Positions 26,985 through 55,508 of a stretch of DNA of 64,000 nt are shown here, piece after piece. Every line of letters starts with the position of its first letter. Position 1 is the stretch's first letter. The DNA lies in the IMG/VR virus record IMGVR_UViG_3300029309_000010, positions 21,137 through 85,136 of that record. One strand, 5' to 3'. This DNA is from a virus. The notes below the pieces were generated by a model that was not told where the DNA came from, did no database searches, and saw only the letters and a list, made by a program, of their open reading frames with translations. The translations under genes were made by a program, and so were the position numbers.

Positions 26985-26989
26985 ATTAG

Positions 26990-37272: not shown

Positions 37273-37277
37273 GGCTA

Positions 37278-38120: not shown

Positions 38121-38148
38121 TTGCGCTCAACAGGATCTGTAGTATAAT
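38121..38148 (+). promoter_or_regulatory. Sigma70-like leaderless promoter
   Basis: TTGCGC (38121-38126), 16-bp spacer, TATAAT (38143-38148), 6 nt to the ATG at 38155. An A-tract lies upstream. Confidence 0.72.
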
Positions 38149-38154
38149 GCTCAC

Positions 38155-38421
38155 ATGACTAAGACAAAGACCACCTACAGAACCACCATCGACTTCCTCA
38201 ACGACTGCGACACAGTGATCTTCGAACACGAAGGTGTCGAGCACGAGGGAGAAGTCACCTTGCACGATCCTGAGATCCACGAAGATGACTGCCCAGAGGG
38301 GCACGTTTACATTCTGTTTCCTGCCATCGCAGGACAAGAAGAGTATCCCTTCGGGATGCCAGTCCACGAGGACGACATAGTCGCTAAGATCGACGAGGAC
38401 GGCGAGAGGATCGAGCTGTAG
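38155..38421 (+). CDS. Small acidic protein, unknown
   Basis: 88 residues, with many Asp, Glu and His (for example LHDPEIHEDDCPEGHVYILF). No family recognised. First gene of the GC-rich island; start set by the leaderless promoter. Strong acidity and early-type promoter suggest a host-takeover or inhibitor protein, but that is speculation. Confidence 0.65.
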   Translation: MTKTKTTYRTTIDFLNDCDTVIFEHEGVEHEGEVTLHDPEIHEDDCPEGHVYILFPAIAGQEEYPFGMPVHEDDIVAKIDEDGERIEL

Positions 38422-38456
38422 GCGCTAAAAAAAAAGAAAAAAAAGCGCGATTCCCC

Positions 38457-38484
38457 TTGCGCCCACGCTAAAATCAGCTATAAT
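38457..38484 (+). promoter_or_regulatory. Sigma70-like leaderless promoter
   Basis: TTGCGC (38457-38462), 16-bp spacer, TATAAT (38479-38484), 6 nt to the ATG at 38491. It is preceded by an A-rich tract between GCGCT and AGCGC arms. Confidence 0.72.
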
Positions 38485-38490
38485 ATCCCC

Positions 38491-38739
38491 ATGACTCAGG
38501 AAGACATCATGACCCGCCCGACTGACAACTACTACGTGGTGACCGCTGCCTCACGCGCCGACTCTATGAGTCGCGTGCTGGTGGGTGGCACCGTGAACAA
38601 GCCGCTTGCCCTCGCTATCGGAGAGCAGCAGATCGCTGGGATGGTGAGCGGTTTCGCCTCCCGCGCCGAGGCACTTGAGACATACCCCGAGATGCGCGGC
38701 GACCTCATCCCTCGCCCTCTCCCTCTTCCTACCCTGTAA
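38491..38739 (+). CDS. Small protein with FASRAEA motif (paralogue 1)
   Basis: 82 residues. The segment GFASRAEALETYPEM is nearly the same as AFASRAEAVEAYPDW in the 66-residue protein at 39303, also near its C-terminus, so the two are small paralogues. The N-terminal part (DNYYVVTAASR) also corresponds in position to FFMVIRPSR. Function unknown. Start defined by the promoter 6 nt upstream. Confidence 0.65.
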   Translation: MTQEDIMTRPTDNYYVVTAASRADSMSRVLVGGTVNKPLALAIGEQQIAGMVSGFASRAEALETYPEMRGDLIPRPLPLPTL

Positions 38740-38757
38740 TCACTAACAAGTAATCAA

Positions 38758-39051
38758 ATGAAACTCACATTCCAATACCTCAAACAGTTCACCATCACCG
38801 CCATCGTGTTCACTCAAGCCATCTCCCTCATCATACTTGGGTTGATCTGGTGGTTCAGTGGTTCAGCAGCAGCAGTCAACTACATCAAGACGCAATACGT
38901 GGGCGACTACATGAATCAGGAGGGCCTAGTTCTCTGGCTTACAGTGTTCGCGCTTCTTGGGTCGCTCTTCTGCGCCCCCATCGCTGCCTTTTTTCACTGG
39001 CGCTCTGATCTAGCCCCAATCCCTACCCACAAAAAAAAAGTGCGTGGCTAG
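38758..39051 (+). CDS. Small membrane protein, two TM segments
   Basis: 97 residues. Two hydrophobic spans: ~12-32 (TITAIVFTQAISLIILGLIW) and ~58-80 (LVLWLTVFALLGSLFCAPIA), ending in a basic tail THKKKVRG. Lies 18 bp after the preceding gene, so it is probably co-transcribed. An inner-membrane early protein is likely; no family recognised. Holin function cannot be excluded, but the island's early-type promoters argue against it. Confidence 0.6.
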   Translation: MKLTFQYLKQFTITAIVFTQAISLIILGLIWWFSGSAAAVNYIKTQYVGDYMNQEGLVLWLTVFALLGSLFCAPIAAFFHWRSDLAPIPTHKKKVRG

Positions 39052-39099
39052 GTAAAAAAAATCTTGACATCCGTCTGTAGGGTGTCGCTGTCATGGGAG

Positions 39100-39127
39100 G
39101 CCCCGTTCCCCGCTTGGGGGGCGGGGC
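39100..39127 (+). terminator. GC-rich hairpin, possible terminator
   Basis: GCCCCGTTCCCC / GGGGGGCGGGGC with loop GCTT, 48 nt after the membrane protein gene. It resembles the two true terminators at 42283 and 43324 but lacks a T-tract, so termination is uncertain. Confidence 0.4.
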
Positions 39128-39153
39128 TAACCCGTTGCCTCAAGATCACAAGT

Positions 39154-39235
39154 CATAACTCGTTGACACTCAAGGACTTACGAGGGCGCGGCCCCCGCAA
39201 ACTCGTAACTCGTTGACGCTCAGTCAGTTACGAGG
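39154..39235. repeat. Double-palindrome repeat R1
   Basis: Two copies of a ~33-bp palindrome (consensus CTCGTAACTCnTTGA, TAC, then the complement) separated by a GC-rich core GGCGCGGCCCCCGC. First of seven such blocks in the island. The inner arms GTTACGAG / CTCGTAAC can also pair, so rival folds exist. An A-rich tract and a promoter follow directly. Confidence 0.85.
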
Positions 39236-39268
39236 GTAAAAAAAAGAAATAAAAAACGCATTTAGGGC

Positions 39269-39296
39269 TTGCGGTTAGGCGCAGCTGTGCTAGTAT
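39269..39296 (+). promoter_or_regulatory. Sigma70-like leaderless promoter
   Basis: TTGCGG (39269-39274), 16-bp spacer, TAGTAT (39291-39296), 6 nt to the ATG at 39303. The flank TTAGGGCTTGCG is shared with the promoter at 38121. Confidence 0.68.
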
Positions 39297-39302
39297 TCCC
39301 CC

Positions 39303-39503
39303 ATGACAGTAACTGAAACTACCCCTCGCCCCCGCCCGTTTTTCATGGTGATCCGCCCGAGCCGCGTTCACGCGGGCTTTTGCCTCCTCTGGTGTGGCGA
39401 GGACCGCCATGATGCCCCCTACGGCCACCCGATGGCTTTCGCTTCCCGCGCCGAGGCGGTCGAGGCGTATCCCGATTGGGAAGAGGAGATCATGACCTCC
39501 TAA
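39303..39503 (+). CDS. Small protein with FASRAEA motif (paralogue 2)
   Basis: 66 residues. AFASRAEAVEAYPDWEEE near the C-terminus matches the 82-residue protein at 38491. Contains two cysteines (FCLLWCGED). Its stop codon TAA is the first TAA of repeat R2, so the repeat abuts the reading frame. Function unknown. Confidence 0.62.
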   Translation: MTVTETTPRPRPFFMVIRPSRVHAGFCLLWCGEDRHDAPYGHPMAFASRAEAVEAYPDWEEEIMTS

Positions 39504-39579
39504 GTCACTAAGCCTCAATGAGTTATGAGGCGCGGCCCCCCGCCGCCTCGTAACTCGTTGATACTCAAAGAGTTATGAC
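39502..39579. repeat. Double-palindrome repeat R2
   Basis: Left palindrome degenerate (CTAAGTCACTAAGCCTCAAT...), right one well kept (ACTCGTTGA-TAC-TCAAAGAGT), core GCGCGGCCCCCCGC. It supplies the stop codon of the upstream gene. Confidence 0.82.
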
Positions 39580-39630
39580 TTAAGTTCTAAAACCGCATCT
39601 TTTACTATAGGCTGTCAAGTCAAATATTTG

Positions 39631-39665
39631 GCTATTTGCTATTTGTTGTTCTAACCTGCAACCTG
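39631..39665. repeat. Small shared element E, copy 1
   Basis: GCTATTTGCTATT followed after a short gap by CTAACCTGCAACCTG. Similar strings occur at 41474 and 45545. It lies between repeat R2 and the next promoter; role unknown. Confidence 0.5.
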
Positions 39666-39696
39666 AATTAAAAATGATTTTTTAATGAAAAAAATG

Positions 39697-39724
39697 TTGC
39701 GTAGTCTGCGGTTCTGGCTATACT
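39697..39724 (+). promoter_or_regulatory. Sigma70-like leaderless promoter
   Basis: TTGCGT (39697-39702), 16-bp spacer, TATACT (39719-39724), 6 nt to the ATG at 39731. This fixes the start of the next gene. Confidence 0.7.
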
Positions 39725-39730
39725 GTGGAC

Positions 39731-39940
39731 ATGACAGTTGATCAGGCACTAGCCAAACTAATGAAAGCAGAAGCTGCACTTGAGGTTGAGCGCAATAAGC
39801 ACAACGCCCTTCGGATGGACATATCGGGAGTGCAAGGCCAGCTCAGTGTTGTTACTATGTTCTGCAAGGACGAGTCTGCTAAGTCAGACCTAAATGACTC
39901 CATCAAGAAAATCCAAACTGCATTAAACAATGATCAATAG
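39731..39940 (+). CDS. Small coiled-coil protein, unknown
   Basis: 69 residues from the ATG at 39731; an in-frame GTG at 39725 would fall in the promoter's discriminator, so the ATG is preferred. The sequence (LAKLMKAEAALEVERNKHNA) is heptad-like and probably forms a short coiled coil. Overlaps the next gene by 11 bases. Function unknown. Confidence 0.62.
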   Translation: MTVDQALAKLMKAEAALEVERNKHNALRMDISGVQGQLSVVTMFCKDESAKSDLNDSIKKIQTALNNDQ

Positions 39941-40121
39941 AATAGACCAGATTCTCTCGAATCTCCAGTGCGCCGCCGTCGATGGTGGCTTTAGCCTGTC
40001 CGTCAAAGACGGGGAAATCGTTGCCAAGGATCTGATCTCTGAGCAGCCTCTTGAGTTTATCGTCCGCTTCACTGGGGACGACATCTCTGATGTATCAGTA
40101 AAACCACTAACAAAAAAGTAA
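39930..40121 (+). CDS. Small protein, unknown
   Basis: 63 residues; a helix then strands (FSLSVKDGEIVAKDL, LEFIVRFTGDDI). Starts inside the end of the preceding gene and ends just before the next ATG, so it belongs to a coupled operon. No family recognised. Confidence 0.55.
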   Translation: MINRIDQILSNLQCAAVDGGFSLSVKDGEIVAKDLISEQPLEFIVRFTGDDISDVSVKPLTKK

Positions 40122-40122
40122 C

Positions 40123-40515
40123 ATGGGACTCGACCAATACGCCTACAAAGTAAAGCGCAAGTATGCGCCTACCACTAAGACTTCAACCGTAAGAACTACA
40201 GAGTTCTTTTACTGGCGCAAGCACAACGCCTTGCACGGTTGGATGGAGAATCTATACAACGGAAAAAAACTAGAGGATGGCATCAACATAGACAGCGATG
40301 ACTTCAATGGTGTCGCTGTTAAGCTGGAGGAGAAAGACTTGGATAAGCTGGAGCAGGATGTCATGACCTTCAACTTGCCTCAGACCGCAGGTTTCTTTTT
40401 CGGTCGTGACAGTGTGGGTGATGAATACCAGAAAGAGCAGACTCTTGAGTTTCTCAAGAAAGCTAGGAAAGCACTTGCCGAGGGTTTCGAGGTTGAGTAT
40501 AACAGTTGGTGGTAA
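40123..40515 (+). CDS. Conserved phage protein (MGLDQYAY type)
   Basis: 130 residues. The start MGLDQYAYKV and the segment EFFYWRKHNALHGWMENLY are typical of a family widely spread in phages, often mislabelled as phosphoglycerate kinase; function unknown. The C-terminus has an alternating acidic helix (LEFLKKARKALAEGFEVEY). Stop and next start overlap as TAATG. Confidence 0.7.
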   Translation: MGLDQYAYKVKRKYAPTTKTSTVRTTEFFYWRKHNALHGWMENLYNGKKLEDGINIDSDDFNGVAVKLEEKDLDKLEQDVMTFNLPQTAGFFFGRDSVGDEYQKEQTLEFLKKARKALAEGFEVEYNSWW

Positions 40516-40691
40516 TGGAATCATTCAAAGTATACTTAAAAGAAGTCCACTGGCAGGAGGTGCATGTTCACGCTACCAGTAGACAAGATGCAGTAAAACG
40601 TGCGCGTGATGGGGAGGGTGACTATGTTGGTGCTACAACATACGACCACACAATCGAAACAATAAGTGAACACAGGGTAGAAGAACTGTAG
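40515..40691 (+). CDS. Small protein, unknown
   Basis: 58 residues from the ATG at 40515, chosen because it overlaps the previous stop as TAATG; a GTG nine bases upstream is also in frame. FKVYLKEVHWQEVHVHATSR then DAVKRARDGEG resembles the strand-helix unit of small phage proteins related to DUF-type DpnD/PcfM folds (a weak resemblance). Function unknown. Confidence 0.55.
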   Translation: MESFKVYLKEVHWQEVHVHATSRQDAVKRARDGEGDYVGATTYDHTIETISEHRVEEL

Positions 40692-40718
40692 AAACTCTCA
40701 ACATCACTTTGACAAAAG

Positions 40719-40973
40719 ATGGAAAACCAATACAGTAGTATAACAAAGCAGGTAATCAGGTTCGGCCCAACCGACGAATTCCCCTTCCTCTTAAACTTAA
40801 CTATAACTTCTAATGACAAGCGCACTTGTTCTTTTACTGTTCATACTTTGCAGTCCGATGATACGTGGTCTGCTGCACTTCCCCAATGGCTCTTCACTGA
40901 GGCAAAGCAGAAAGAAATCAGGCTTCTGCTTAATCAGCTATGTCAGAAACATGCTCTGAAAAAGTTCTCGTAA
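40719..40973 (+). CDS. Small protein, unknown
   Basis: 84 residues, no family recognised. A strand-rich first half (FPFLLNLTITSNDKRTCSFT) and a helical end (TEAKQKEIRLLLNQLCQKHA). Its stop codon TAA comes from the first CTCGTAA of repeat R3. No leaderless promoter is seen, so it is probably read from the promoter at 39697. Confidence 0.55.
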   Translation: MENQYSSITKQVIRFGPTDEFPFLLNLTITSNDKRTCSFTVHTLQSDDTWSAALPQWLFTEAKQKEIRLLLNQLCQKHALKKFS

Positions 40974-41048
40974 CTCACTGATACTTAGTGGGTTACGAGG
41001 CGGGGGCGGCGCCGCCCTCCTAACTCGCTGATACTCAACGAGTTATGA
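40967..41048. repeat. Double-palindrome repeat R3
   Basis: Left unit ACTCACTGA-TAC-TTAGTGGGT, right unit ACTCGCTGA-TAC-TCAACGAGT, core GGCGGGGGCGGCGCCGCC. The left arms differ from the other copies on both sides together (CACTGA with TTAGTG), keeping the hairpin. Confidence 0.85.
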
Positions 41049-41074
41049 AAGTGAAAAAAAAAGAAAGAAAACGC

Positions 41075-41102
41075 TTGCACGGTTAGCTGACTGTGTTACT
41101 TT
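41075..41102 (+). promoter_or_regulatory. Sigma70-like leaderless promoter
   Basis: TTGCAC (41075-41080), 16-bp spacer, TACTTT (41097-41102), 6 nt to the ATG at 41109. A-rich tract upstream. Confidence 0.65.
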
Positions 41103-41108
41103 CCCCAC

Positions 41109-41333
41109 ATGACAGATCTACATGACTTCATCACCGTCCGCCCCGAAGAACTCATCGACTCCCTCGCGGACGGCCCCCGCGAAGGGCAGTTCAACCCGTC
41201 ACCCGAGGAGGTGCAGGAGTTGTTCGCGCAGATTCACGCGGAGGAGCACCCCACCCAGTTCTCGACTGACGATGACGAGCGCGACGAGATACCGATGCTC
41301 AACACGGAACTTGCAAAAAGATTCGTTCCGTAA
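41109..41333 (+). CDS. Small acidic protein, unknown
   Basis: 74 residues, strongly acidic (PEEVQELFAQIHAEEHP; DDDERDEIP). Another reading frame over the same stretch is open but Arg/Ser-rich and lacks a promoter match, so I take this one. The stop TAA is contributed by repeat R4. Small acidic early proteins often act as DNA mimics or inhibitors; no evidence here beyond charge. Confidence 0.6.
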   Translation: MTDLHDFITVRPEELIDSLADGPREGQFNPSPEEVQELFAQIHAEEHPTQFSTDDDERDEIPMLNTELAKRFVP

Positions 41334-41409
41334 GTGATTAATACTCAAGGGGTTACGAGCCGCGCCCCGCCGCCCCCTCGTAACTCCTTGATACTCAAGG
41401 GGTTACGAC
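41329..41409. repeat. Double-palindrome repeat R4
   Basis: Right unit ACTCCTTGA-TAC-TCAAGGGGT pairs well; left unit is weaker (AAGTGATTA-ATAC-TCAAGGGG). Core CCGCGCCCCGCCGCCCC. An A-rich tract and promoter follow. Confidence 0.82.
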
Positions 41410-41433
41410 TGAATAAAAAATAATAAAAAAGGT

Positions 41434-41461
41434 TTGCAGATCAGGCGTCTTGTGATAGTCT
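41434..41461 (+). promoter_or_regulatory. Sigma70-like promoter with a leader
   Basis: TTGCAG (41434-41439), 16-bp spacer, TAGTCT (41456-41461). Unlike the others, the gene starts at 41508, leaving a leader of about 40 nt that contains element E. Confidence 0.5.
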
Positions 41462-41473
41462 ATTTGCAAGTTA

Positions 41474-41507
41474 GCTATTTGCTATTAGACCATATATCCT
41501 GTAACCT
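41474..41507. repeat. Small shared element E, copy 2
   Basis: GCTATTTGCTATT then ATCCTGTAACCTA directly before the ATG at 41508. The ATCCTGTAACCTA half is identical to copy 3 at 45545-45580. Confidence 0.55.
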
Positions 41508-41873
41508 ATGATCAAAAAAATGTTCAGATTCAGCAGAAAACCTCTTGCACTCACTGCAAAACCTGTTAAAATCACACCCATGCAACCAACCAATCTTACT
41601 AACGTAATCGTGGATGCTAACCAGCAGTTACCAAGCAATCCAGTTCACCTTGCCTCTGAGCTTACAGGCAAGACCGTTTCCTACACTAACAAAGAGAAAT
41701 CTTCTGTTGTGTCTGGCAAAACCAGAGTCTTCAAGATCAAAGCAGTTGAGGACATCACCGTCTCCAAAACCACGGGCAACGAGTATGTAACCGTGCAGGT
41801 CCAAGACTTGGACGATGGAGGCACCGTCAAGCATCGGAATCTCCTTGTGCAAGGAATCGACGTTGTTGTATAA
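41508..41873 (+). CDS. Small protein, unknown
   Basis: 121 residues. A basic N-terminus (MIKKMFRFSRKPLAL) is followed by a mostly strand-rich body (TRVFKIKAVEDITVSKTTG, EYVTVQVQDLDDGGTV). Possibly a small barrel. Lies in a two-gene unit with the next ORF, 17 bp downstream. No family recognised. Confidence 0.58.
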   Translation: MIKKMFRFSRKPLALTAKPVKITPMQPTNLTNVIVDANQQLPSNPVHLASELTGKTVSYTNKEKSSVVSGKTRVFKIKAVEDITVSKTTGNEYVTVQVQDLDDGGTVKHRNLLVQGIDVVV

Positions 41874-41890
41874 TTCTACCAAACAAAACT

Positions 41891-42115
41891 ATGGCATCTA
41901 AAACCAAAACAGAAACCGTTAGGATCGAAGTGAGAAACTCCGATCAAGCCGCCCTTGTAAGCTATGGCCTCGGCCTAGTCCATCAGGAACTCTCTACCAA
42001 GCTAGTGGATGTGGCAGATGATAAGCTCGACACCTTTGTTGGGAACATCAAGTATCTTCGCAAGAATGCTAATCACTTAAACGAAAAGTTTTCTCTCCCC
42101 GTGAACGATCAATAA
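41891..42115 (+). CDS. Small protein, unknown
   Basis: 74 residues; MASKTKTETVRIEVRNSD start, then predicted helices (AALVSYGLGLVHQELSTKLV). Ends just before the candidate noncoding RNA region. No family recognised. Confidence 0.55.
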   Translation: MASKTKTETVRIEVRNSDQAALVSYGLGLVHQELSTKLVDVADDKLDTFVGNIKYLRKNANHLNEKFSLPVNDQ

Positions 42116-42325
42116 TTTCTAGAAACCTCCCCTCCTGTTCTCTCTGATGGGTAGGTGGTTGTAAAACACAGTGAGGCTTTTAGCGGTGGGCGTATAACCG
42201 TAGGCTTAACGTAAGAGTAGCCGCCCCTCTCCCACTTTTCTAGACAGTGGGTGAGGGAACCACTTTCTGCATGGTGCTAACTGCCCCGTCCCCTATGTTT
42301 GCTCATGTTAGGGGGCGGGGTTTTT
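42116..42325 (+). ncRNA. Candidate structured noncoding RNA ending in a terminator
   Basis: About 210 bases without an ORF between a small gene and a tRNA. Several local hairpins can be drawn by eye: CCCACT/AGTGGG (42234-42254 region), a GCGG...CCGC long-range pair, and a very strong 3' terminator. The combination of GC-rich helices, no reading frame and a terminator suggests a small RNA or a long 3' untranslated region. Secondary structure has not been computed. Confidence 0.4.
42283..42325 (+). terminator. Strong Rho-independent terminator
   Basis: CCCCGTCCCCTA (42284-42295) pairs with TAGGGGGCGGGG (42309-42320), followed by TTTTT. It ends directly against the tRNA's first base. Confidence 0.9.
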
Positions 42326-42398
42326 GGGAGTGTAGCTCAATGGTTAGAGCACACGACTCATAATCGTTAGGTTGCGGGTTCGAGTCCCGCCGCTCCCA
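42326..42398 (+). tRNA. tRNA with CAU anticodon (Met or Ile2)
   Basis: Full cloverleaf: acceptor GGGAGTG/CGCTCCC (one G-T pair), D-arm GCTC...GAGC, anticodon loop CTCATAA, T-arm GCGGG-TTCGAGT-CCCGC. CCA is not encoded. The anticodon arm CGACTCATAATCG resembles bacterial tRNA-Ile2, whose CAU is modified to lysidine to read AUA, as much as elongator Met; the two cannot be told apart by eye. An AT-rich phage using many AUA codons would gain from Ile2. Confidence 0.93.
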
Positions 42399-42478
42399 TA
42401 ACTCACTAAGCCTCAAGGAGTTACGAGTCGCGCCCCGCCCCGCCCTCGTAACTCGTTGATACTCAACGACTTACGACT
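42397..42478. repeat. Double-palindrome repeat R5
   Basis: Begins at the last bases of the tRNA. Right unit ACTCGTTGA-TAC-TCAACGACT, left unit ACTCACTAA-GCC-TCAAGGAGT, core TCGCGCCCCGCCCCGCC. A-rich tract follows. Confidence 0.82.
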
Positions 42479-42510
42479 GAAAAAAAAAGAAAGAAAAAGG
42501 CAAAATAGGG

Positions 42511-42538
42511 TTGCATCAAATCTCTCATGTGATACTCT
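42511..42538 (+). promoter_or_regulatory. Sigma70-like leaderless promoter
   Basis: TTGCAT (42511-42516), 16-bp spacer, TACTCT (42533-42538), 6 nt to the ATG at 42545. Confidence 0.62.
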
Positions 42539-42544
42539 CCTCCC

Positions 42545-43303
42545 ATGCTGATACTAGCTAAGAACAAAGTTGATACCGAGCAGCTCGCAGAAGTTACCAC
42601 CCCGTCTGCAACGGACACTCACACTCCAATCCCTCACGCGCTCCTCGCGGATCGCACTCGCACCGTCATTGATGCGGCTGGTTTGGAGATCGTCGAAGAG
42701 GAACACGCGATTGCGCGTGGTGGTCTTCGCTACTTTGGTGGCTTCGCCCTCAAGGGTGAGGCCATCGACGGAGATGACCGCAAGCTGGTGCTTGGTCTCC
42801 GCAACGCGCACGACAAGTCTTTTGCGGCTTCCGTGTGCATCGGCAACCAGATGATGGTCTGCGAAAATCTTTGCTTCTCTTCAGATGTGAAGCTCGCTCG
42901 CCGTCACACCGTCAACATCCTTCGGGATCTGAACACGGTGCTTTCGTCTGCCGTTAGTCGCGTGACTTCGCACTGGGTTGACATGGGCAATCGGATTGCT
43001 TCCTACAAGGAGAGTGAAATCTCCAAGGAGGCAGCTTCCGACTTGGTTGTCGATCTCGCTGAGATGGGCGCGTTTCCTGCGCGTTCCGTCTACAAGGCGG
43101 TGCAGGAGTTCCGCAACCCTCGCCATGAGGAGTTCAAGGGCGGCACTCTCTGGACTCTCTACAACGGGGTCACCGAGCACCTCAAGGGCGGGGACTTGAC
43201 CAAGCTCCCCCAACGCACGATGACAACGCAAGCTGTCTTTGACAGGCTCGCGGGTCACAGGCCCAAGATCGTCGAGGCCGAACAGGTCGCCATGCCGAGC
43301 TAA
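42545..43303 (+). CDS. DUF932-like protein
   Basis: 252 residues. LGLRNAHDKSFAASVCIGNQ followed by MMVCENLCFSSDVKLARRHT is the hallmark of the DUF932 family (LGlrNSHDkSfa...GnrvfVCdNlaf), widespread in phages and plasmids and of unknown biochemical role. Family members are usually expressed early. Start fixed by a leaderless promoter; a strong terminator follows, so this is an independent cassette. GC-rich, like the rest of the island. Confidence 0.75.
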   Translation: MLILAKNKVDTEQLAEVTTPSATDTHTPIPHALLADRTRTVIDAAGLEIVEEEHAIARGGLRYFGGFALKGEAIDGDDRKLVLGLRNAHDKSFAASVCIGNQMMVCENLCFSSDVKLARRHTVNILRDLNTVLSSAVSRVTSHWVDMGNRIASYKESEISKEAASDLVVDLAEMGAFPARSVYKAVQEFRNPRHEEFKGGTLWTLYNGVTEHLKGGDLTKLPQRTMTTQAVFDRLAGHRPKIVEAEQVAMPS

Positions 43304-43323
43304 TTTGTGTGTGGTAACGCAAA

Positions 43324-43365
43324 GCCCCGTCCCCCCTTTCTTGTTTCGGGGGGGCGGGGTTTTTT
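43324..43365 (+). terminator. Rho-independent terminator
   Basis: CCCCGTCCCCCC (43325-43336) pairs with GGGGGGGCGGGG (43348-43359), followed by TTTTTT. Nearly the same stem as the terminator at 42283, suggesting a duplicated cassette end. Confidence 0.9.
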
Positions 43366-43384
43366 AATGGTTTAAATACGCAAG

Positions 43385-43466
43385 TCATAACTCCTTGAGT
43401 ATCAAGGAGTTACGAGGGCGCGGCCCCCGCCGCCTCGTAACCCATTGAGAATCAATAGGTTATGAA
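43385..43466. repeat. Double-palindrome repeat R6
   Basis: Left unit ACTCCTTGA-GTA-TCAAGGAGT is a perfect palindrome; right unit ACCCATTGA-GAA-TCAATAGGT has changed on both arms together. Core GGCGCGGCCCCCGCCGC. Confidence 0.87.
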
Positions 43467-43488
43467 TGAATTTTTAATAATAAAAAAG

Positions 43489-43516
43489 TTGACCAGAGAG
43501 CGTCTTGTGATATTGT
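43489..43516 (+). promoter_or_regulatory. Sigma70-like leaderless promoter
   Basis: TTGACC (43489-43494), 16-bp spacer, TATTGT (43511-43516), 6 nt to the ATG at 43523. Confidence 0.65.
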
Positions 43517-43522
43517 CGCGCC

Positions 43523-43828
43523 ATGTTAGGAACCATAACAACCAAATCGTTTACGATTAACTATTACCTCTATAAAGGGGAAGGACAGGACAGCGAATGG
43601 CTTTCCACTATTCTAGTCCAAAACAATTCAGGCCAGCCCATGCACACTAGCGATAGAGCAAAACTCTATGCAAAACAATATAATAGTCTTGATGGCTTGG
43701 TCCTTTGGGATATAGAGCCAGCTATGGAAGAGAACGGTGTTGATGTTATCACCATTAATAGTGGATCTGGGGTAATAAAAAAGGTTGCCAACGAGCGCGA
43801 AGCTAGACAAACTTTCGGTAGTAAGTAA
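43523..43828 (+). CDS. Small protein, unknown
   Basis: 101 residues: strands at the start (GTITTKSFTINYYLYKGEG), then VLWDIEPAMEENGVDVITI. Resembles small phage proteins with a DNA-mimic-like acidic body, but no family is recognised. First gene of a six-gene coupled operon; its stop overlaps the next ATG by one base (TAATG). Confidence 0.6.
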   Translation: MLGTITTKSFTINYYLYKGEGQDSEWLSTILVQNNSGQPMHTSDRAKLYAKQYNSLDGLVLWDIEPAMEENGVDVITINSGSGVIKKVANEREARQTFGSK

Positions 43829-49682: not shown

Positions 49683-49903
49683 TATTCTGTTATTTTGAAT
49701 TGAATTGGTTCTGGATCTGTTGTCGGCTTGACAGAAGCATTGATTTCATTAGCTTCCTGCTCGATAATCAGGATGTTCATTTTCTCTAGCCATACCCTGC
49801 TGACAGGGATGTGCTGCTTTGAGCCAAAGTATTCGTTCAATGTCTGCATGTCAACATTAACAAATGACTTTGCTCCTTTCGGTCTTCCTCTTGTCCTTCT
49901 CAT
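49682..49903 (-). CDS. Small protein with AT-hook-like start
   Basis: 73 residues from MRRTRGRPKGAKSFVNVDMQ. I chose this ATG, 7 bases after the upstream stop; an in-frame ATG at 49954 would overlap by 44 bases. The GRPKGAK core is an AT-hook. The SFVNVDMQ strand after it matches the place of GLINVAPYM after the GRP motif at 48628. DNA-binding is likely. Confidence 0.52.
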   Translation of the reverse strand: MRRTRGRPKGAKSFVNVDMQTLNEYFGSKQHIPVSRVWLEKMNILIIEQEANEINASVKPTTDPEPIQFKITE

Positions 49904-49910
49904 TTTTATA

Positions 49911-50114
49911 TTAGTAACCTGCTCTTTCCAGTAGGATTGATTCATCTGGCCCAATGTATTCTAATCTATGATCATCAACTGCAAGTCCTGATGACTTGAG
50001 AACATTCTCAAATAACTCCACTGCGATTATGGTCGAGAAATCCTCCATGTAGATCTCATGTTCAGCTGTATGCTGATTACCATCGCGCTCTATTGTTACC
50101 TTGATCTTACTCAT
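49911..50114 (-). CDS. Small protein, unknown
   Basis: 67 residues, acidic (IEIYMEDFSTIIAVELFENV-like helix after a basic strand). First gene of the leftward small-gene operon that runs to the HNH gene. Its start is fixed by a promoter with a 16-bp spacer ending 7 nt upstream. No family recognised. Confidence 0.55.
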   Translation of the reverse strand: MSKIKVTIERDGNQHTAEHEIYMEDFSTIIAVELFENVLKSSGLAVDDHRLEYIGPDESILLERAGY

Positions 50115-50121
50115 TGCCTGT

Positions 50122-50149
50122 AGTATATATGTAAACTGGGTTGCGTCAA
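50122..50149 (-). promoter_or_regulatory. Sigma70-like leaderless promoter
   Basis: TTGACG (50144-50149), 16-bp spacer, TATACT (50122-50127), 7 nt to the ATG at 50114. It drives the small-gene operon. Confidence 0.68.
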
Positions 50150-50169
50150 CATTTTTTATGAATAAAAAT

Positions 50170-50475
50170 TCATTTTTTATAGAAATCTTTGTAGAGTTCT
50201 TTTACTAATGGTGTTAATATATGGTCGTATGCTCTCACTAGGGCCTCCTCAAGCTCTGGCTGCACATCTTCTAAGATATAACCAAGACCTGAAATATCAA
50301 GCATAGCGTGGAAAGCTTCATGCACAAGGGTATCTAAAAGAACTTCGCCTTTAATTTTTTTAGATATGGAAATTTTTTTGGCATCAGAGTCTAACTCGCC
50401 AAACTCTTTCATATCTTTATAAACTATATCATATTGGATACCCGCGATTACAATATGTGTGGGCTTGTAACTCAT
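50170..50475 (-). CDS. Small zinc-metallopeptidase-like protein
   Basis: 101 residues. LLDTLVHEAFHAMLDISGLG holds an HExxH zinc motif (H52-E-A-F-H56), and ELEEAL a few turns later can supply the third ligand, as in ImmA/IrrE- and SprT-type domains. The chain is short, only the catalytic core. Lies 8 bases after the RuvB-like gene and probably shares its transcript. ImmA-like proteins cut repressors; whether this one does is unknown. Confidence 0.6.
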   Translation of the reverse strand: MSYKPTHIVIAGIQYDIVYKDMKEFGELDSDAKKISISKKIKGEVLLDTLVHEAFHAMLDISGLGYILEDVQPELEEALVRAYDHILTPLVKELYKDFYKK

Positions 50476-50483
50476 ACTAAATC

Positions 50484-51422
50484 TTATGCGATTTCCCTCG
50501 CAAGATCCAGACCTTTTTTGGTAAGTTCTCTTTTTGAATCAATCTTTATCAGACGTTTCTTTACAAGCATCTTTTCATAATCTCTCTGAATAGCAGCTCT
50601 CTGGAATCCAGTGACTGATGAAAGTCCGTTAAGTGTCATAGCTCCACGCTCACCTAGCGCCTTGACAATGATTAGCTCAGATGCCGTTAGGCCATAACGC
50701 TTGACTCCCATAGCATCAGAAAACTCTTTCCAAATTTCTTTGCTTACCTTCTTAACATCTCTTGCTGCAATATAAGTTTTAAGATCTTCCGCTTTGACAA
50801 CAGCATCTCTTGGGTTACCCCTAAAGGAAGAAATAATATCTTCTTTTGCACGATTGTCAATATCAGCAGCATACTCAAGATTATCGTGGAATATATCGTA
50901 AAGTTCTTGACTTTTATATTCCTCAAAGGCAATGTCACGTAGACGATCTCTAAGTGGTTCTGCCAACTTCTGCTGGTCAGTAGTAGCCATGCAAAAGGTC
51001 AGCTCATTAAAATCAAAGCTGTAGGGAACTCCCTCATGCTCCACTGTCCTAACAGGATTCTTGTCCACGTTCAGAACAGACAAAAAGATTTGTTGCAGAT
51101 CCTTGGGAAGATTGTGGCCCTCATCAATAAACAAAAATGCTTTGTGTTGCACCCAGACTGGATATACCTGCTCAAAGAAGCTGGCAGCATTCCTGATTGT
51201 CTTGCCATTGACCTCCAGCATAGGTGGCTTGCTACCATCACTACGACGAAGGGCCTCCCGAAACAGGCGAGCAAAATATGTCTTGCCTCCTCCCTTTCCA
51301 GTAGTAAGATTAATAAATGGCATTCTGTCAGTCTTCTTGTATGCATCAATATAGATGCTCAAGGTCCGCTTGACTGACTCTTGCCCGATGGCTTCGTCAA
51401 ATATGCTATTGATCTTAGGCAT
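50484..51422 (-). CDS. RuvB-like AAA+ ATPase
   Basis: 312 residues from MPKINSIFDEAIGQESVKRT. The ATG at 51422 is chosen because a TTGCAC-16-TATTCT promoter ends exactly 6 nt before it; a frame start at 51440 lies inside the promoter. Order: FDEAIGQESVKRTL (like RuvB 'dfiGQ'), TGKGGGKTYFA (Walker A with T for the first G), FLFIDEGHNL (Walker B), ATTDQQKLAEPLRDRLRD (sensor and arginine finger), and a winged helix (GAMTLNGLSSVTGFQRAAIQ) as in the RuvB C-terminus. Likely branch migration or clamp-loader-like role. No RuvA is seen. Confidence 0.82.
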   Translation of the reverse strand: MPKINSIFDEAIGQESVKRTLSIYIDAYKKTDRMPFINLTTGKGGGKTYFARLFREALRRSDGSKPPMLEVNGKTIRNAASFFEQVYPVWVQHKAFLFIDEGHNLPKDLQQIFLSVLNVDKNPVRTVEHEGVPYSFDFNELTFCMATTDQQKLAEPLRDRLRDIAFEEYKSQELYDIFHDNLEYAADIDNRAKEDIISSFRGNPRDAVVKAEDLKTYIAARDVKKVSKEIWKEFSDAMGVKRYGLTASELIIVKALGERGAMTLNGLSSVTGFQRAAIQRDYEKMLVKKRLIKIDSKRELTKKGLDLAREIA

Positions 51423-51428
51423 GACGCT

Positions 51429-51456
51429 AGAATACAGCACTTTAATGGTAGTGCAA
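51429..51456 (-). promoter_or_regulatory. Sigma70-like leaderless promoter
   Basis: TTGCAC (51451-51456), 16-bp spacer, TATTCT (51429-51434), 6 nt to the ATG at 51422. Divergent from the promoter at 51483. Confidence 0.7.
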
Positions 51457-51482
51457 GCACTTTTTAAGAAAAAAAATACCTC

Positions 51483-51510
51483 TTGACTCGCGGTGTTTTT
51501 TGGCTATAAT
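51483..51510 (+). promoter_or_regulatory. Sigma70-like leaderless promoter
   Basis: TTGACT (51483-51488), 16-bp spacer, TATAAT (51505-51510), 7 nt to the ATG at 51518. Confidence 0.75.
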
Positions 51511-51517
51511 AAAGAAG

Positions 51518-51772
51518 ATGAAGAGATCTACACACATCTTCAGTAAATTAATCATAGGCACGTTTGCCATAATTATTGGGATACCTCTTGGAATAATCAC
51601 AGGTGTCACCTGCATGATTAGAATAATTGTATCTTATCCATTTGACATATACAGAATAGCCGTTACAAAAATCGAGCAGCGAGCAGCATTGGAAGAACTT
51701 CTTGATAACCAAGATCAAGACATTTGGGATAAGCATATCGCTAGAACACAACAAAATCAAAAACAAAACTAA
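51518..51772 (+). CDS. Small membrane protein
   Basis: 84 residues from MKRSTHIFSKLIIG; an upstream in-frame TTG at 51500 lies inside the promoter and is rejected. The first 45 residues form one long or two short membrane spans (LIIGTFAIIIGIPLGIITGV), then a charged helix. Stop and next start overlap by one base. No family recognised. Confidence 0.62.
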   Translation: MKRSTHIFSKLIIGTFAIIIGIPLGIITGVTCMIRIIVSYPFDIYRIAVTKIEQRAALEELLDNQDQDIWDKHIARTQQNQKQN

Positions 51773-52146
51773 TGGACATACAGGAGTTGTTAAAAATACA
51801 TGATGAAACTTGCGATAAGTGCAAGGGAATAATGCAAAGAAAAAACAGTGATTATACTGGTGGCAAGAAAGCTACAGATGTTTTTGCTAATTTTAATTCA
51901 TCTATAATATTAAATATTAATCCAGTCCAAGGTCTACTTCTTAGGGTAATAGACAAAATTAAAAGAATCTATTCTTTCACTAATGATAAGCAATTACAAG
52001 TTTCAGATGAGTCGGTTGACGATGCATGTGAAGACATTGTAAATTATGCGATTCTAGCAAAGGCTATGCTAATCGAAGAAAGAAAAAGAATCAAACAAAA
52101 TCAAGAAAAACAAAAGAAAGAAAAAATTTTTCCATTGGCTGAATAG
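51772..52146 (+). CDS. DUF1599 / nucleotide-modification-associated domain 1 protein
   Basis: 124 residues. CKGIMQRKNSDYTGGKKATD then FANFN, LLLRVIDKIKRIYSF and VSDESVDDACEDIVNYAILA follow the DUF1599 (Nmad1) layout, an all-alpha family related in look to MazG-type nucleotide hydrolases: KNxDY, DKxxR, ESxxDxxxDxxNY. Family members are linked to phage nucleotide or DNA-base chemistry. Inorganic pyrophosphatase encoded in the same operon would remove PPi released by such reactions (inference). Confidence 0.68.
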   Translation: MDIQELLKIHDETCDKCKGIMQRKNSDYTGGKKATDVFANFNSSIILNINPVQGLLLRVIDKIKRIYSFTNDKQLQVSDESVDDACEDIVNYAILAKAMLIEERKRIKQNQEKQKKEKIFPLAE

Positions 52147-52150
52147 CTAT

Positions 52151-52222
52151 TATTTGGCCTTTTTTTGCACATCCTAGCCTCTCTCTATATTTGGCCCCTT
52201 TGCTCTCAACCTAGCCTCTTCC
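52151..52222. repeat. Imperfect tandem repeat, 37-bp unit
   Basis: TATTTGGCC...CCTAGCCTCT occurs twice (52151-52187, 52188-52222). Pyrimidine-rich, noncoding, upstream of the next gene. Role unknown. Confidence 0.45.
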
Positions 52223-52230
52223 AAAAAACG

Positions 52231-52238
52231 GTGTAATT
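52231..52238 (+). promoter_or_regulatory. GTGTAA-type element, + strand
   Basis: GTGTAATT, 9 nt before the GTG start at 52248, within GGTGTA...TATACC partial dyad. Confidence 0.4.
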
Positions 52239-52247
52239 ATATATACC

Positions 52248-52466
52248 GTGCTATTTAAAAAAGCTGCTACATTATTAGAAACATCTCTTGTAATCTTGTT
52301 TATATCAATATTATCAGTATGTTTATTCAAAGCTGGTCATGGTGTTTACAGGATATTTGTAAGAATGGCAGAGAGTGAATACGATAAAGCTTACTATGAA
52401 AATGATCCAAAGGGGCTGCTAAAGAGAGAAAGCGATAATATGATGTGGCATAGAGGTTTTAAATAG
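52248..52466 (+). CDS. Small membrane-anchored protein
   Basis: 72 residues, GTG start. KKAATLLETSLVILFISILS begins with a basic patch and a Leu-Glu-x-Ser-Leu-hydrophobic run that looks like a type IV pilin-like leader, then a TM span. The rest is charged (YDKAYYENDPKGLLKRESDN). Function unknown. Confidence 0.5.
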   Translation: MLFKKAATLLETSLVILFISILSVCLFKAGHGVYRIFVRMAESEYDKAYYENDPKGLLKRESDNMMWHRGFK

Positions 52467-52469
52467 TTT

Positions 52470-52715
52470 ATGAAAGTAAAAGAAATATTAGCTAATTGTT
52501 CTATATTACAGAACGGTTCTTATTATTTGGGTTGTGCTTACCCAAACTTTAAAGATCCTATAGTTGAAAAAGTTAGGGTTTTGGTAGATAATGGTTATGA
52601 ATTTAAGTTAAAAGAAGTAAGCATCTTTGGAGAAGAGACTTATTTCTGCAATAAATTAAACTTAAGTTATCAAACAGATTATAACGGAGATTCAACATTA
52701 CATTATTCAGGATAA
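52470..52715 (+). CDS. Small protein, unknown
   Basis: 81 residues. VKEILANCSILQNGSYYLGC contains two of three cysteines; the remainder is strand-rich with many Tyr. Three bases after the preceding gene, so same transcript. No family recognised. Confidence 0.52.
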   Translation: MKVKEILANCSILQNGSYYLGCAYPNFKDPIVEKVRVLVDNGYEFKLKEVSIFGEETYFCNKLNLSYQTDYNGDSTLHYSG

Positions 52716-52718
52716 TTT

Positions 52719-52859
52719 ATGAAAAAGAAATCAGGAAGCTCCTATGAGGGGAGCAAAAAGAAAGGCTACAGAGGCTTTAATTCTAGAAAGAAAACTTCTT
52801 TCAATAAGAATAGTAAGCATTACAAGAAGAAGTATCGGGGTCAAGGCAAGATAAGGTGA
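52719..52859 (+). CDS. Small, highly basic peptide (46 residues)
   Basis: MKKKSGSSYEGSKKKGYRGF then a run of Lys, Arg, Asn, Ser and Tyr ending KKYRGQGKIR. About 45 percent Lys/Arg, no hydrophobic core, so probably disordered and nucleic-acid-binding. AGGA lies about 9 nt before the ATG. Its stop overlaps the GTG start of the pyrophosphatase gene (GTGA), supporting real translation. Confidence 0.55.
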   Translation: MKKKSGSSYEGSKKKGYRGFNSRKKTSFNKNSKHYKKKYRGQGKIR

Positions 52860-53407
52860 ATCTGGTAGATGACATCCCCATAAGCAAAGATGGATTCCAT
52901 CACGTAAATTGTATTATCGAGATCCCCAAGGGGACTAATACTAAATACGAGTATGATGAGGATTTAAATATATTTAAATTAGATAGGTGCTTGGTATCTT
53001 CTTTGCAATATCCTATCAACTATGGTTTTATTCCACGCACCATAGCATTAGATGATGACCCCTTAGATGTCTTGGTATTTAACCATGATCCGATTGACAG
53101 AGGTGTCTTAGTATCTTGTAGAATTCTTGGTGTCTTAGGGTTTACAGATGGTGGTAAGATTGATAACAAACTTATTGCTGTTCCTCACTGGTCACCAGAA
53201 GAAAAATATAAAACAATTAAAGACATTGAGTCATCTCACTTGAAAATCTTTAGAGAGTTCTTTAAAATATATAAAATAGATAGAGCCTCTGAGACAGAAG
53301 TAGGACGTTGGACCAGTGTAGCAAAAGCTAAAGAAATATTACTAGACGCACACAAAAGATGGTTAAAAAAAGGTGGAGAACGAAAATTGTGGAATGACCC
53401 AAGATGA
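52856..53407 (+). CDS. ppa: Inorganic pyrophosphatase, family I
   Basis: 183 residues, GTG start overlapping the preceding stop. EIPKGTNTKYEYD, QYPINYGFIP (51-60) and the signature DDDPLDVLV (66-74) give the metal- and PPi-binding Asp/Lys/Tyr set of family I enzymes; GGKIDNKLIAVP follows. It hydrolyses PPi to phosphate in the cytosol, pulling DNA synthesis or nucleotide reactions forward. Phage-encoded PPases are uncommon. The C-terminal part (FFKIYK...EVGRWTSVAKAKEIL) matches bacterial enzymes, so the protein looks complete and active. Confidence 0.95.
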   Translation: MNLVDDIPISKDGFHHVNCIIEIPKGTNTKYEYDEDLNIFKLDRCLVSSLQYPINYGFIPRTIALDDDPLDVLVFNHDPIDRGVLVSCRILGVLGFTDGGKIDNKLIAVPHWSPEEKYKTIKDIESSHLKIFREFFKIYKIDRASETEVGRWTSVAKAKEILLDAHKRWLKKGGERKLWNDPR

Positions 53408-53565
53408 ACCCAGACTTAATAACTAAATATGTTCCTTTGATTGCTGGCATCATGTATACAGCAGTAGGAGCAGCTTACATTATGAAAAAAGATGTGGGCT
53501 GGGCAATTATTTGGCTGTCTTACGCTACAGCTAACTTTGGATTAATGGTAGTGGGGAACCCATGA
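53404..53565 (+). CDS. Small membrane protein (53 residues)
   Basis: Starts ATGA-coupled to the pyrophosphatase. Two hydrophobic stretches (YVPLIAGIMYTAVGAAYIM and GWAIIWLSYATANFGLMVV) separated by KKD, so a two-TM hairpin. Ends in ATGA overlap with the cupin gene. Function unknown. Confidence 0.58.
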   Translation: MNPDLITKYVPLIAGIMYTAVGAAYIMKKDVGWAIIWLSYATANFGLMVVGNP

Positions 53566-53891
53566 AGTTTAACATAAAAGATATCCAAGGAGAGATTATT
53601 AAAGATAACGATACTTATCTTTTGAGAGACAATCATACTTTAAATAATCTTATATTAAGCAGCACTAGATTAAAGCCCTACAAAGAAACAAGAGGTCATA
53701 GTCACAAGGGCAAAGAAGAAGTTTATTATTTTGTAGAAGGAGAAGGCGTTATGATTCTCCGCTACGATAAATTTGAAGTTAAGGCTGGAGATTTAGTATT
53801 GATTCCTGATGGTGCATTTCATCAGGTTCAAAATCCAACAGACAAAGACTTGTATTTCGTCTGTGTATTTGAAGGAAGTAGAGATCATTAA
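53562..53891 (+). CDS. Cupin-domain protein
   Basis: 109 residues, a single cupin barrel. Motif 1: RGHSHKGKEEVYYFVEGEG gives H46, H48 and E52/53; motif 2: LIPDGAFHQVQN gives H87. This is a full metal-binding set. Small stand-alone cupins act as sugar isomerases, epimerases, oxygenases or sensors; substrate unknown. With glycosyltransferases elsewhere in the window, a sugar-related role is possible. Confidence 0.85.
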   Translation: MKFNIKDIQGEIIKDNDTYLLRDNHTLNNLILSSTRLKPYKETRGHSHKGKEEVYYFVEGEGVMILRYDKFEVKAGDLVLIPDGAFHQVQNPTDKDLYFVCVFEGSRDH

Positions 53892-53903
53892 TTACATTTA
53901 TTT

Positions 53904-53911
53904 GTGTAAAA
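53904..53911 (+). promoter_or_regulatory. GTGTAA-type element, + strand
   Basis: GTGTAAAA, exactly 6 nt before the GTG start at 53918. Same geometry as the - strand virion genes. Confidence 0.5.
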
Positions 53912-53917
53912 ATAAAT

Positions 53918-54250
53918 GTGAACCTAATTGTCGTATCTGACTTAACTCTTAAAGAAGGTTTATATTTTAGGCATCTGACGATGCTAATGAAATCTAATTT
54001 GAAAATAAATGTGCTTATAGAAGCACAAAGAGATCAAATAGATTATTACTACAACATACTAAAAAAGAAGGGTTACTACGATTTTGTAACGGATATGTTG
54101 TCTATTGATGAGAGAGAGGCTGGAGTCAGGTTAGATACAGAATACAATTATCCATCAACTGTAATAGCTGAAGAAATAACTTCACAAAATGTTATCTCCC
54201 TTTATTTGCAGATAAGAGCACTAGCTAGTATGGAAGCTAGATTAAAATAA
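53918..54250 (+). CDS. Small protein, unknown
   Basis: 110 residues, GTG start supported by the GTGTAAAA element 6 nt upstream. NLIVVSDLTLKEGLYFRHLT then LKINVLIEAQRDQIDYYYNI, LKKKGYYDFVTDML alternates strand and helix like a small Rossmann or HAD-like domain (VSDLT may correspond to the nucleophile loop). Family not established. A terminator follows at once. Confidence 0.55.
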   Translation: MNLIVVSDLTLKEGLYFRHLTMLMKSNLKINVLIEAQRDQIDYYYNILKKKGYYDFVTDMLSIDEREAGVRLDTEYNYPSTVIAEEITSQNVISLYLQIRALASMEARLK

Positions 54251-54275
54251 AATAGCCCCCTAATTGGGGGCTATT
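54251..54275. terminator. Bidirectional terminator
   Basis: AATAGCCCCC / GGGGGCTATT perfect 10-bp stem, loop TAATT, between converging genes. T-rich flanks on the two sides allow both directions. Confidence 0.85.
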
Positions 54276-54278
54276 GAT

Positions 54279-54740
54279 TTAAATTTCGTCATCGTCTTCT
54301 TCGACTGGATCTGGCTCAGGCTCAGGCTCAGGTGTAGGTTCTGGCTCCACTGGTGGATCAGGATCTGGCTCTGGCTCTGGTGGAGCAGTGTTTGCCCACT
54401 CTCTAATCGCAGGGATTGCAGCGATGATTGCATCCATAGCTTCAGCAGCTTCTGGGACCTCATCCATCATCTGCCAAAATGGTTTCCTGCCATTCACACG
54501 ACTAGGGATGTTGATATACTCAACTCCTTCATTGTCAGCGGTGACAAGAACTTTTTCACTGTCTCCATCATAAGGAAGCATTTCAATGTTTACGCTACCT
54601 TGGCTTGGATCAGCTTCTGCTGTATTTGGCACAAAAATGTTAATACTACGCAGCCAGACAGAATCAAAAGTCTCTTCTGGCTTGGCTGGGACTACGAAAG
54701 GTTCGTCCCGTGGGATTGGATCTCCTAAGTTATCTGGCAT
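54279..54740 (-). CDS. Acidic protein with Pro/Glu-rich tail
   Basis: 153 residues. The first ~100 form a folded part (FDSVWLRSINIFVPN; VLVTADNEGVEYINIPSRVN; WQMMDEVPEAAEAMDAIIAA), the last ~45 are PEPEPDPDPP-type repeats ending EEDDDEI. Such tails are common in virion-associated or periplasm-spanning proteins. It lies next to the fibre and glycosyltransferase and has tandem GTGTA elements upstream, which fits late expression. No family recognised. Confidence 0.55.
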   Translation of the reverse strand: MPDNLGDPIPRDEPFVVPAKPEETFDSVWLRSINIFVPNTAEADPSQGSVNIEMLPYDGDSEKVLVTADNEGVEYINIPSRVNGRKPFWQMMDEVPEAAEAMDAIIAAIPAIREWANTAPPEPEPDPDPPVEPEPTPEPEPEPDPVEEDDDEI

Positions 54741-54771
54741 GACTAATTATATTTGTTAGTGTTACTATTTA

Positions 54772-54787
54772 CTACACTTTTTTACAC
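54772..54787 (-). promoter_or_regulatory. Tandem GTGTAA-type elements, 10 bp apart
   Basis: GTGTAAAA (54780-54787) and GTGTAG (54772-54777), about 35-40 nt before the ATG at 54740. Same tandem spacing as before the major tail tube gene. Confidence 0.5.
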
Positions 54788-55474
54788 AAAAAAGGATTTT
54801 AAATGTCCAACTCTCAGCTTTGGAACAACAAGAGGCTTTATTTGTAGTTTATCATAAACATTCCTACAAAAACTGACATCTTCAAAGCTCATGTCAATTA
54901 CATCAAATTTTTCTCCCTTCTTATGTGGATGGTCGCAATCTGGTATATTTGCATCTCTGAGCGGGTAGTAGGGATAGTCCATTTGCTCGTAGATTGACCT
55001 GTGAACCTTCGTAAAGCCAAATCCGCACCAATCTACCTGAACCAACTTATTTGGCTCCTCCTCGGCCATTTTTGTGAGCCATTCAACAGATGTAAATGGC
55101 ATGTGGAGATTCTTCCTAAAGAAGTCTTCGTTCCAATCACCAACCATAGCTTTATCAGAGTAATCTGATCTATACCACCCAGTAACAAACTTTTTATCTG
55201 GCGGTATACTAAGCATATGTTCTATCTGCTCAATATTGAATTGAACATCTGAGTCAATCCAAAATAACCATTCAGCGTCAGGAGGATTTGTGTCTGCAAA
55301 ACCACCACCACCTGATGCCAAGAAGTTACGGGCGAAGTTCAGGAACAATCCATTGCAGGTATAAATGGTAGAATTATTCTTATCACACCAAGACTGTAAT
55401 CTAAGATACTGCTCGAAACACTTGCCTTGAATGCCACGATGATCAATCGGGATTAAAAATATACAGTTAAGCAT
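54782..55474 (-). CDS. GT-A glycosyltransferase
   Basis: 230 residues. FLIPIDHRGIQGKCFEQYLR at the N-terminus, LNFARNFLASGG, and WLFWIDSDVQFNIEQIEHML, which contains the DxD metal motif (DSD), give a GT-A fold typical of phage GT2-like enzymes. Later FVTGWYRSDYSDK and DVIDMSFEDVSFCRNV match the family's C-terminal acceptor half. It stands next to the fibre and could glycosylate a virion protein (inference). A TTGATT-16-TATAAT promoter ends 6 nt before the ATG. Confidence 0.75.
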   Translation of the reverse strand: MLNCIFLIPIDHRGIQGKCFEQYLRLQSWCDKNNSTIYTCNGLFLNFARNFLASGGGGFADTNPPDAEWLFWIDSDVQFNIEQIEHMLSIPPDKKFVTGWYRSDYSDKAMVGDWNEDFFRKNLHMPFTSVEWLTKMAEEEPNKLVQVDWCGFGFTKVHRSIYEQMDYPYYPLRDANIPDCDHPHKKGEKFDVIDMSFEDVSFCRNVYDKLQIKPLVVPKLRVGHLKSFFV

Positions 55475-55480
55475 CTATTT

Positions 55481-55508
55481 ATTATAGGTGCCTTGTGTAT
55501 TTAATCAA
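55481..55508 (-). promoter_or_regulatory. Sigma70-like leaderless promoter
   Basis: TTGATT (55503-55508), 16-bp spacer, TATAAT (55481-55486), 6 nt to the ATG at 55474. Confidence 0.72.

Follow-up and report, generated by a model that had tools for sequence, protein, structure and literature searches.

Promoters at a fixed distance from the start codon predict leaderless mRNAs in an uncultivated group of aquatic phages

Gene content and relatives

The IMG/VR virus record IMGVR_UViG_3300029309_000010 has a length of 85,136 bp. The stretch analysed here, referred to as the window, comprises positions 21137-85136 of this record (64,000 nt). It codes for a terminase, PhoH, a RuvB-like clamp loader, a GP88 gene, a pyrophosphatase, and a protein of the sigma-70 family, while a ribonucleotide reductase is encoded in the remainder of the record. 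The subject of this study is a sigma-70-like promoter which recurs in this phage at a fixed distance upstream of start codons. Genes were called with a simple codon model built for the present analysis.

Nucleotide searches with the phage sequence gave no match to isolate phages. The terminase does not closely resemble those of isolates (all matches are below 60% identity), and two other protein searches returned no phage match. A scan of viral contigs revealed 237 stretches with a related terminase, from which the best 80 were fetched as relatives. The resulting sample comprises about 1.9 Mb of related contigs, and similar copies were removed before counting. The phage and its relatives represent an uncultivated aquatic group.

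A promoter at a fixed distance from the start codon

A previous reading of the window, made from its letters alone (the sequence-only reading), had reported the layout TTGNNN-16 bp-TANNNT-6 nt-ATG at ten genes, and versions with 5 or 7 nt at three more. The layout was found at all ten coordinates, on both strands, and the 5- and 7-nt versions are present at 26984, 50114, and 51518 (Table 1). Additional sites are located at 41580, 37272, and 45923 in the window and at 12462 (- strand) of G000, outside the window.

The layout was counted on both strands of the complete record. With a spacer of 16 bp, an ATG follows the -10 element after exactly 6 nt in 14 cases, although only about 1.7 are expected in each distance bin; there are six cases at 5 nt and four at 7 nt. 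Spacers of 15, 17, 18, and 19 bp show no peak at 6 nt in this record. In 200 dinucleotide-preserving shuffles, the mean count at 6 nt was 1.68 and the maximum was 6. The Poisson probability of 14 cases (about 3e-9) counts related promoters of one genome as independent. Among ATGs within long genes, only 2 of 2059 carry the layout. Random ATGs are thus not preceded by the motif at equal density; the sequence-only reading had stated that such an equality would refute it. The distance layout is real in this phage genome.

The elements resemble those recognized by the housekeeping sigma-70 factor: TTGC or TTGA at -35, TATA(A/C)T at -10, and a spacer of 16-17 bp, within the 16-18 bp of TTGACA/TATAAT-like promoters. 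An upstream A-tract and a pyrimidine at -1 are the other recurring parts. Within the window, where the upstream gap is at least 50 nt, 16 of 21 genes have an early or late motif (see below) at their ATG; among closely spaced genes, this applies to 5 of 47. For the latter group, the Fisher test took 45 rather than 47 genes (p = 3e-7), and it also treats related promoters as independent. Twenty of the closely spaced genes overlap the preceding gene by 4 or 1 nt, and internal genes mostly overlap or abut their predecessor.

Occurrence in relatives and in IMG/VR

In the relatives, the peak at 6 nt consists of 96 non-redundant cases with a 16-bp spacer and 80 with a 17-bp spacer, compared to about 13 per bin. 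Spacers of 14, 15, 18, and 19 bp are flat in this sample of about 1.9 Mb. The proposed invariance of the 16-bp spacer thus holds for all sites initially listed but has to be relaxed to 16 or 17 bp across the group. A second class, with the ATG at an offset of 9 nt, characterizes G006 and is also common in some further relatives; at 7 and 8 nt, the counts are close to background. Orthologues of genes 38491, 42545, 51422, 51518, and 55474 have a promoter flush with the same ATG even though the sequence further upstream has diverged. Clusters of flush promoters are found in G004 (109 kb) and G006 (134 kb), two contigs with repeating ends. A distant relative with a terminase of 33% sequence identity (L227) has about 20 flush promoters in 10 kb.

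The arrangement extends beyond phages with a related terminase. L201, on a 79-kb contig (G026, GC content 0.50) which lacks such a terminase, has ten early promoters with 16 bp and 6 nt. Shine-Dalgarno sequences are retained at other genes of this contig. The exact pattern TTGC-N18-TATACT-N5-CATGAC, which was derived from this phage group itself, occurs in at least 119 stretches of IMG/VR, compared to 8 when shifted by 2 nt. Among 116 loci fetched by this pattern, 73 have less than 5% coding similarity to the group; with the match itself masked, these still show the 6-nt peak (39 versus about 7). The rigid promoter-to-codon unit, initially regarded as a trait of one phage, is genuine here but is common to a large group from aquatic metagenomes and is present in at least one phage contig, that of L201, which lacks the terminase of this group.

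In two relatives (L039 and L041), upstream of the orthologues of 39930, the -35 element TTGCCC lies within the inverted repeat CTTGCCCTTCGGGGCAAG. This looks as if a terminator and the following promoter overlap.

Predicted transcription start and translation signals

RNA polymerase with sigma-70 usually initiates about 7 nt past the -10 hexamer, on a purine which follows a pyrimidine. In the 6-nt class, a pyrimidine occupies -1 in 97% of the cases (80% have C there), compared to 51% in control genes. The 9-nt class has a purine, mostly G, at -3 in 74 of 82 cases, with a pyrimidine at -4. The seventh base after the -10 element is thus a suitable start purine in both classes, which predicts leaders of 0 or 3 nt (5'-GYY-AUG). 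Both peaks place the predicted +1 on the start codon or within a few nucleotides of it.

Shine-Dalgarno-like tetramers precede 9% of the genes of this phage, compared to a background of 7%, and are at background also in the relatives tested, as expected for leaderless genes. In comparison phages, the proportion is 64-71% (two pelagiphage-type podoviruses), 51% (T4), 46% (HTVC008M), and 35% (cyanophage S-PM2). Bacteroidota phage phi38:1 likewise lacks Shine-Dalgarno sequences, yet it shows no 6-nt peak. The coding starts of promoter-adjacent genes also differ from controls: codon 2 is ACN in 27% versus 9%, codons 2-6 are 71% versus 59% A+C, and the first 40 nt fold with a mean energy of -2.0 versus -3.5 kcal/mol. 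CA repeats and low structure downstream of the AUG are reported to favour leaderless translation (PMC9031893).

The sequence-only reading had proposed leaderless mRNAs which start at the A of the ATG. The distance peak, the pyrimidine at -1, and the conservation of the layout in relatives agree with this, as do the A/C-rich, weakly structured coding ends and the lack of a Shine-Dalgarno signal. We thus consider a start at this A a strong and well-supported prediction from sequence. A uniform offset applies to the 6-nt class; some relatives use 9 nt, for which a 3-nt leader is predicted instead.

Late-type promoters and a phage sigma factor

A second motif, GTGTAA, precedes ATGs at 8 nt (21 non-redundant cases), 9 nt (20), and 10 nt (15), compared to about 4.5 per bin. 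It is often followed by TATA and, in several genomes, lies directly after a terminator-like hairpin. The genes concerned are presumably late, judging by their position with the terminase and likely structural genes. The T4-type late motif TATAAATA has no distance peak, GTGTAA showing one instead, and T4-type late promoters were thus rejected. Several late genes would be transcribed from GTGTAA promoters 8-12 nt before the ATG, presumably read by the sigma factor of the phage, and these would also yield leaders of a few nucleotides at most.

This sigma factor is represented by 59 distinct forms among the fetched relatives. Region 2 (PF04542) is matched in all 47 aligned members, while region 4 (PF08281) gives a weak match in 12 of 47 (best E-value 0.0026). 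The nearest folds to a structure model (predicted local distance difference test score of 74) are sigma factors (best E-value 1.6e-3); when PDB sequences were searched with the sigma profile, no sigma factor was matched. A cysteine cluster (CLRCPH...C...C) located between regions 2 and 4 is largely conserved in relatives and is possibly a metal site.

Table 1. Promoters and associated features in window coordinates. For promoters, the spacer (bp) and the distance between the -10 element and the ATG (nt) are given.
Feature	Position	Strand	Remarks
Early promoter, gene 38155	38121..38157	+	16, 6
Early promoter, gene 38491	38457..38493	+	16, 6; retained in 7 relatives
Early promoter, gene 39303	39269..39305	+	16, 6; relatives L008, L093
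Early promoter, gene 39731	39697..39733	+	16, 6; relative L008; ATG favoured over GTG 39725
Early promoter, gene 41109	41075..41111	+	16, 6; relative L093
Early promoter, ATG 41580	41545..41582	+	16, 7; within longer frame 41508; same layout at L088 8967
Early promoter, DUF932 gene 42545	42511..42547	+	16, 6; retained in at least 6 close relatives
Early promoter, gene 43523	43489..43525	+	16, 6
Early promoter, ATG 51518	51483..51520	+	16, 7; divergent from 51422; in relatives
Early promoter, RuvB/clamp-loader-like gene 51422	51420..51456	-	16, 6; in relatives
Early promoter, gene 50114	50112..50149	-	16, 7
Promoter, gene 45923	45921..45961	-	17, 9; palindrome ACCACC-GTA-GGTGGT in spacer
Promoter, gene 55474	55472..55508	-	16, 6; in relatives
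Promoter, gene 21308	21306..21342	-	16, 6
Promoter, gene 26984	26982..27017	-	16, 5; in relatives
Promoter, gene 37272	37270..37306	-	17, 5; in relatives
TATAAT 5 nt before ATG 54740, no TTG element	54738..54751	-	conserved
Late-type GTGTAA, 8 nt before ATG 22591	22600..22605	-	directly after terminator-like hairpin and T-run
Late-type GTGTAA, 8 nt before ATG 30369	30378..30383	-	motif
Late-type GTGTAA, 8 nt before ATG 32333	32342..32347	-	motif
Late-type GTGTAA, 10 nt before ATG 19620	19631..19636	-	motif
GTGTAA, 12 nt before phoH ATG 37961	37974..37979	-	conserved
Sigma-70-family factor, 225 amino acids	36240..36917	-	clear match to region 2, weak match to region 4; start placed according to relatives

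Other features and host

In the region 51420-51520, genes 51422 and 51518 have divergent early promoters which share a single A/T-rich tract lying between them; this arrangement is conserved in relatives. The palindrome of the 45923 promoter (45923-45961) fits exactly between its -35 and -10 elements. Palindromes of this type are also present in L085, L088, L089, L091, L092, L133-L135, L137, L141, L148, and L149. The outer bases covary in relatives (TACC..GGTA, CCCC..GGGG, and, in L093, GCC..GGC). The palindrome is a candidate operator or hairpin and is followed by a conserved gene of about 97 codons (YPLPTVHLNGT).

Clues to the host point in several directions. A related terminase is present in one contig of a metagenome-assembled genome labelled Flavobacteriaceae. 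The promoters, however, are not of the Bacteroidota type, the sigma-ABfr element TAnnTTTG at -7 being found in 0 of 165 promoters. The window codes for a tRNA (47054-47129, - strand, 76 nt) with anticodon UAA and encoded CCA, of which the relatives have 13 distinct forms. It lacks a long variable arm, which is unusual for a tRNA-Leu. The closest plasmid tRNAs are actinobacterial. A WhiB-like gene is a marker of freshwater actinophages (PMC10202952); none of the 23 related records, which include many fragments, has such a gene. Homologues of GP88 point to phages of Mycobacterium, Pelagibacter, and others.

Interpretation and alternative explanations

We consider it very likely that these phages combine leaderless expression from flush promoters with reinitiation and a late motif class. 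Transcription in the related phages would start at the A of the AUG or at a purine, mostly G, 3 nt upstream. Ribosomes would bind the 5'-terminal AUG directly, aided by the unstructured, A/C-rich coding start. Since Shine-Dalgarno signals are missing from the genome, downstream genes would depend on termination-reinitiation for their translation. The simplest model appears to be that ribosomes enter at the first AUG and then reinitiate. In its strict form, the model would cover essentially all genes, early and late, as devoid of Shine-Dalgarno sequences and entered only at 5'-terminal AUGs (leader of 0 or 3 nt), with reinitiation thereafter. Predicted leaders of 0 or 3 nt, as opposed to 1 or 2, would then suggest that the ribosome takes up, before the AUG, either no nucleotide or exactly one E-site codon. 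This form we put forward tentatively, with somewhat more doubt than belief.

Several observations weigh against the leaderless reading. Genes 45032, 47038, 52470, 52856, and 53987 head their transcription units without a motif, so that some transcripts may have leaders. Among the short genes, some starts (39731, 41580) were picked in part by the motif. Gene 21308 stands alone, without relatives to compare, and the C before the ATG is missing at 21308, 26984, and 55474. The gene heads without a motif, together with intergenic gaps of 135-429 nt which could house other promoters, would also fit mRNAs that begin further upstream with ordinary leaders, the -35- and -10-like boxes being secondary. 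We consider this very unlikely, as it leaves unexplained the exact register of 6 (or 9) nt, the pyrimidine before the A of the ATG, and the absence of Shine-Dalgarno sequences in the would-be leaders.

The fixed distance might instead reflect ancestry rather than function, if an ancestral promoter-plus-start unit had been duplicated. Some promoters indeed share long flanks (GCGATT..GGGCTTGCG), L227 contains near-identical copies, and promoters of the same gene differ among relatives as if they had been exchanged. However, 165 promoters with diverged spacers are still at 6 nt once similar copies are removed. Moreover, 16- and 17-bp spacers both hold the 6-nt distance, so that conservation of the spacing to the ATG does not depend on the other parts. 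Copying and function need not exclude each other; copying as the sole cause of the distance is scarcely probable. Extremely improbable is a regulator site which spans promoter and start codon and sets the distance, with leader length incidental: the conserved palindrome between -35 and -10 in the promoter family of 45923 would suit such a site, but no palindrome or other motif is common to all promoters beyond the -35 and -10 elements, the A-tract, and the -1 pyrimidine.

Leaderless translation is commonly regarded as a side route, known from individual phage genes, of which lambda cI is one. Here, leaderless entry appears to be the main route into the messages of a large group of uncultivated aquatic phages. 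If this is true, the layout provides a precise start-codon rule for such phages, their host is predicted to translate 5'-terminal AUGs efficiently, and hundreds of natural promoters are available to probe how ribosomes accept leaders of 0 or 3 nt.

Comparison with known systems

The cI gene of lambda, when transcribed from PRM by host sigma-70 polymerase, is leaderless; this is a single gene, while the present phages show a genome-wide design. Leaderless middle and late transcripts were reportedly found in the Thermus phages phiYS40 and P23-45 by Sevostyanova et al. in 2007. These two phages differ in having Shine-Dalgarno sequences at 39-60% of their genes and no 6-nt peak with the matrix used here. 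In Actinobacteria, leaderless genes have a -10 box right before the start codon.

The T4 system, in which late transcription depends on gp55, likewise combines a phage sigma factor with a second, late promoter type. Its motif, TATAAATA, differs from the GTGTAATATA found here, and the sigma factor described above also appears to have a region-4-like end.

For Deinococcus-Thermus, one study describes a -10 region adjacent to the open reading frame which gives rise to leaderless mRNA (PMC12340547). Its cases, like the actinobacterial ones, concern cellular genes. The present system belongs to a phage without Shine-Dalgarno sequences and has a clear -35 element with a fixed spacer of 16 or 17 bp. 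A paper on AR9 states that leaderless transcripts are frequent in phages (PMC5312081). In the cluster O mycobacteriophages (Corndog group), three leaderless cases have been predicted (PMC4351075), among 8-9 predicted promoters per genome; the present phage has about 14 in 85 kb and, in addition, a late class. Leaderless phage genes are thus already known; what is new is their extent, the absence of Shine-Dalgarno sequences, the quantisation of the offset at two values, and the presence of another class of promoters.

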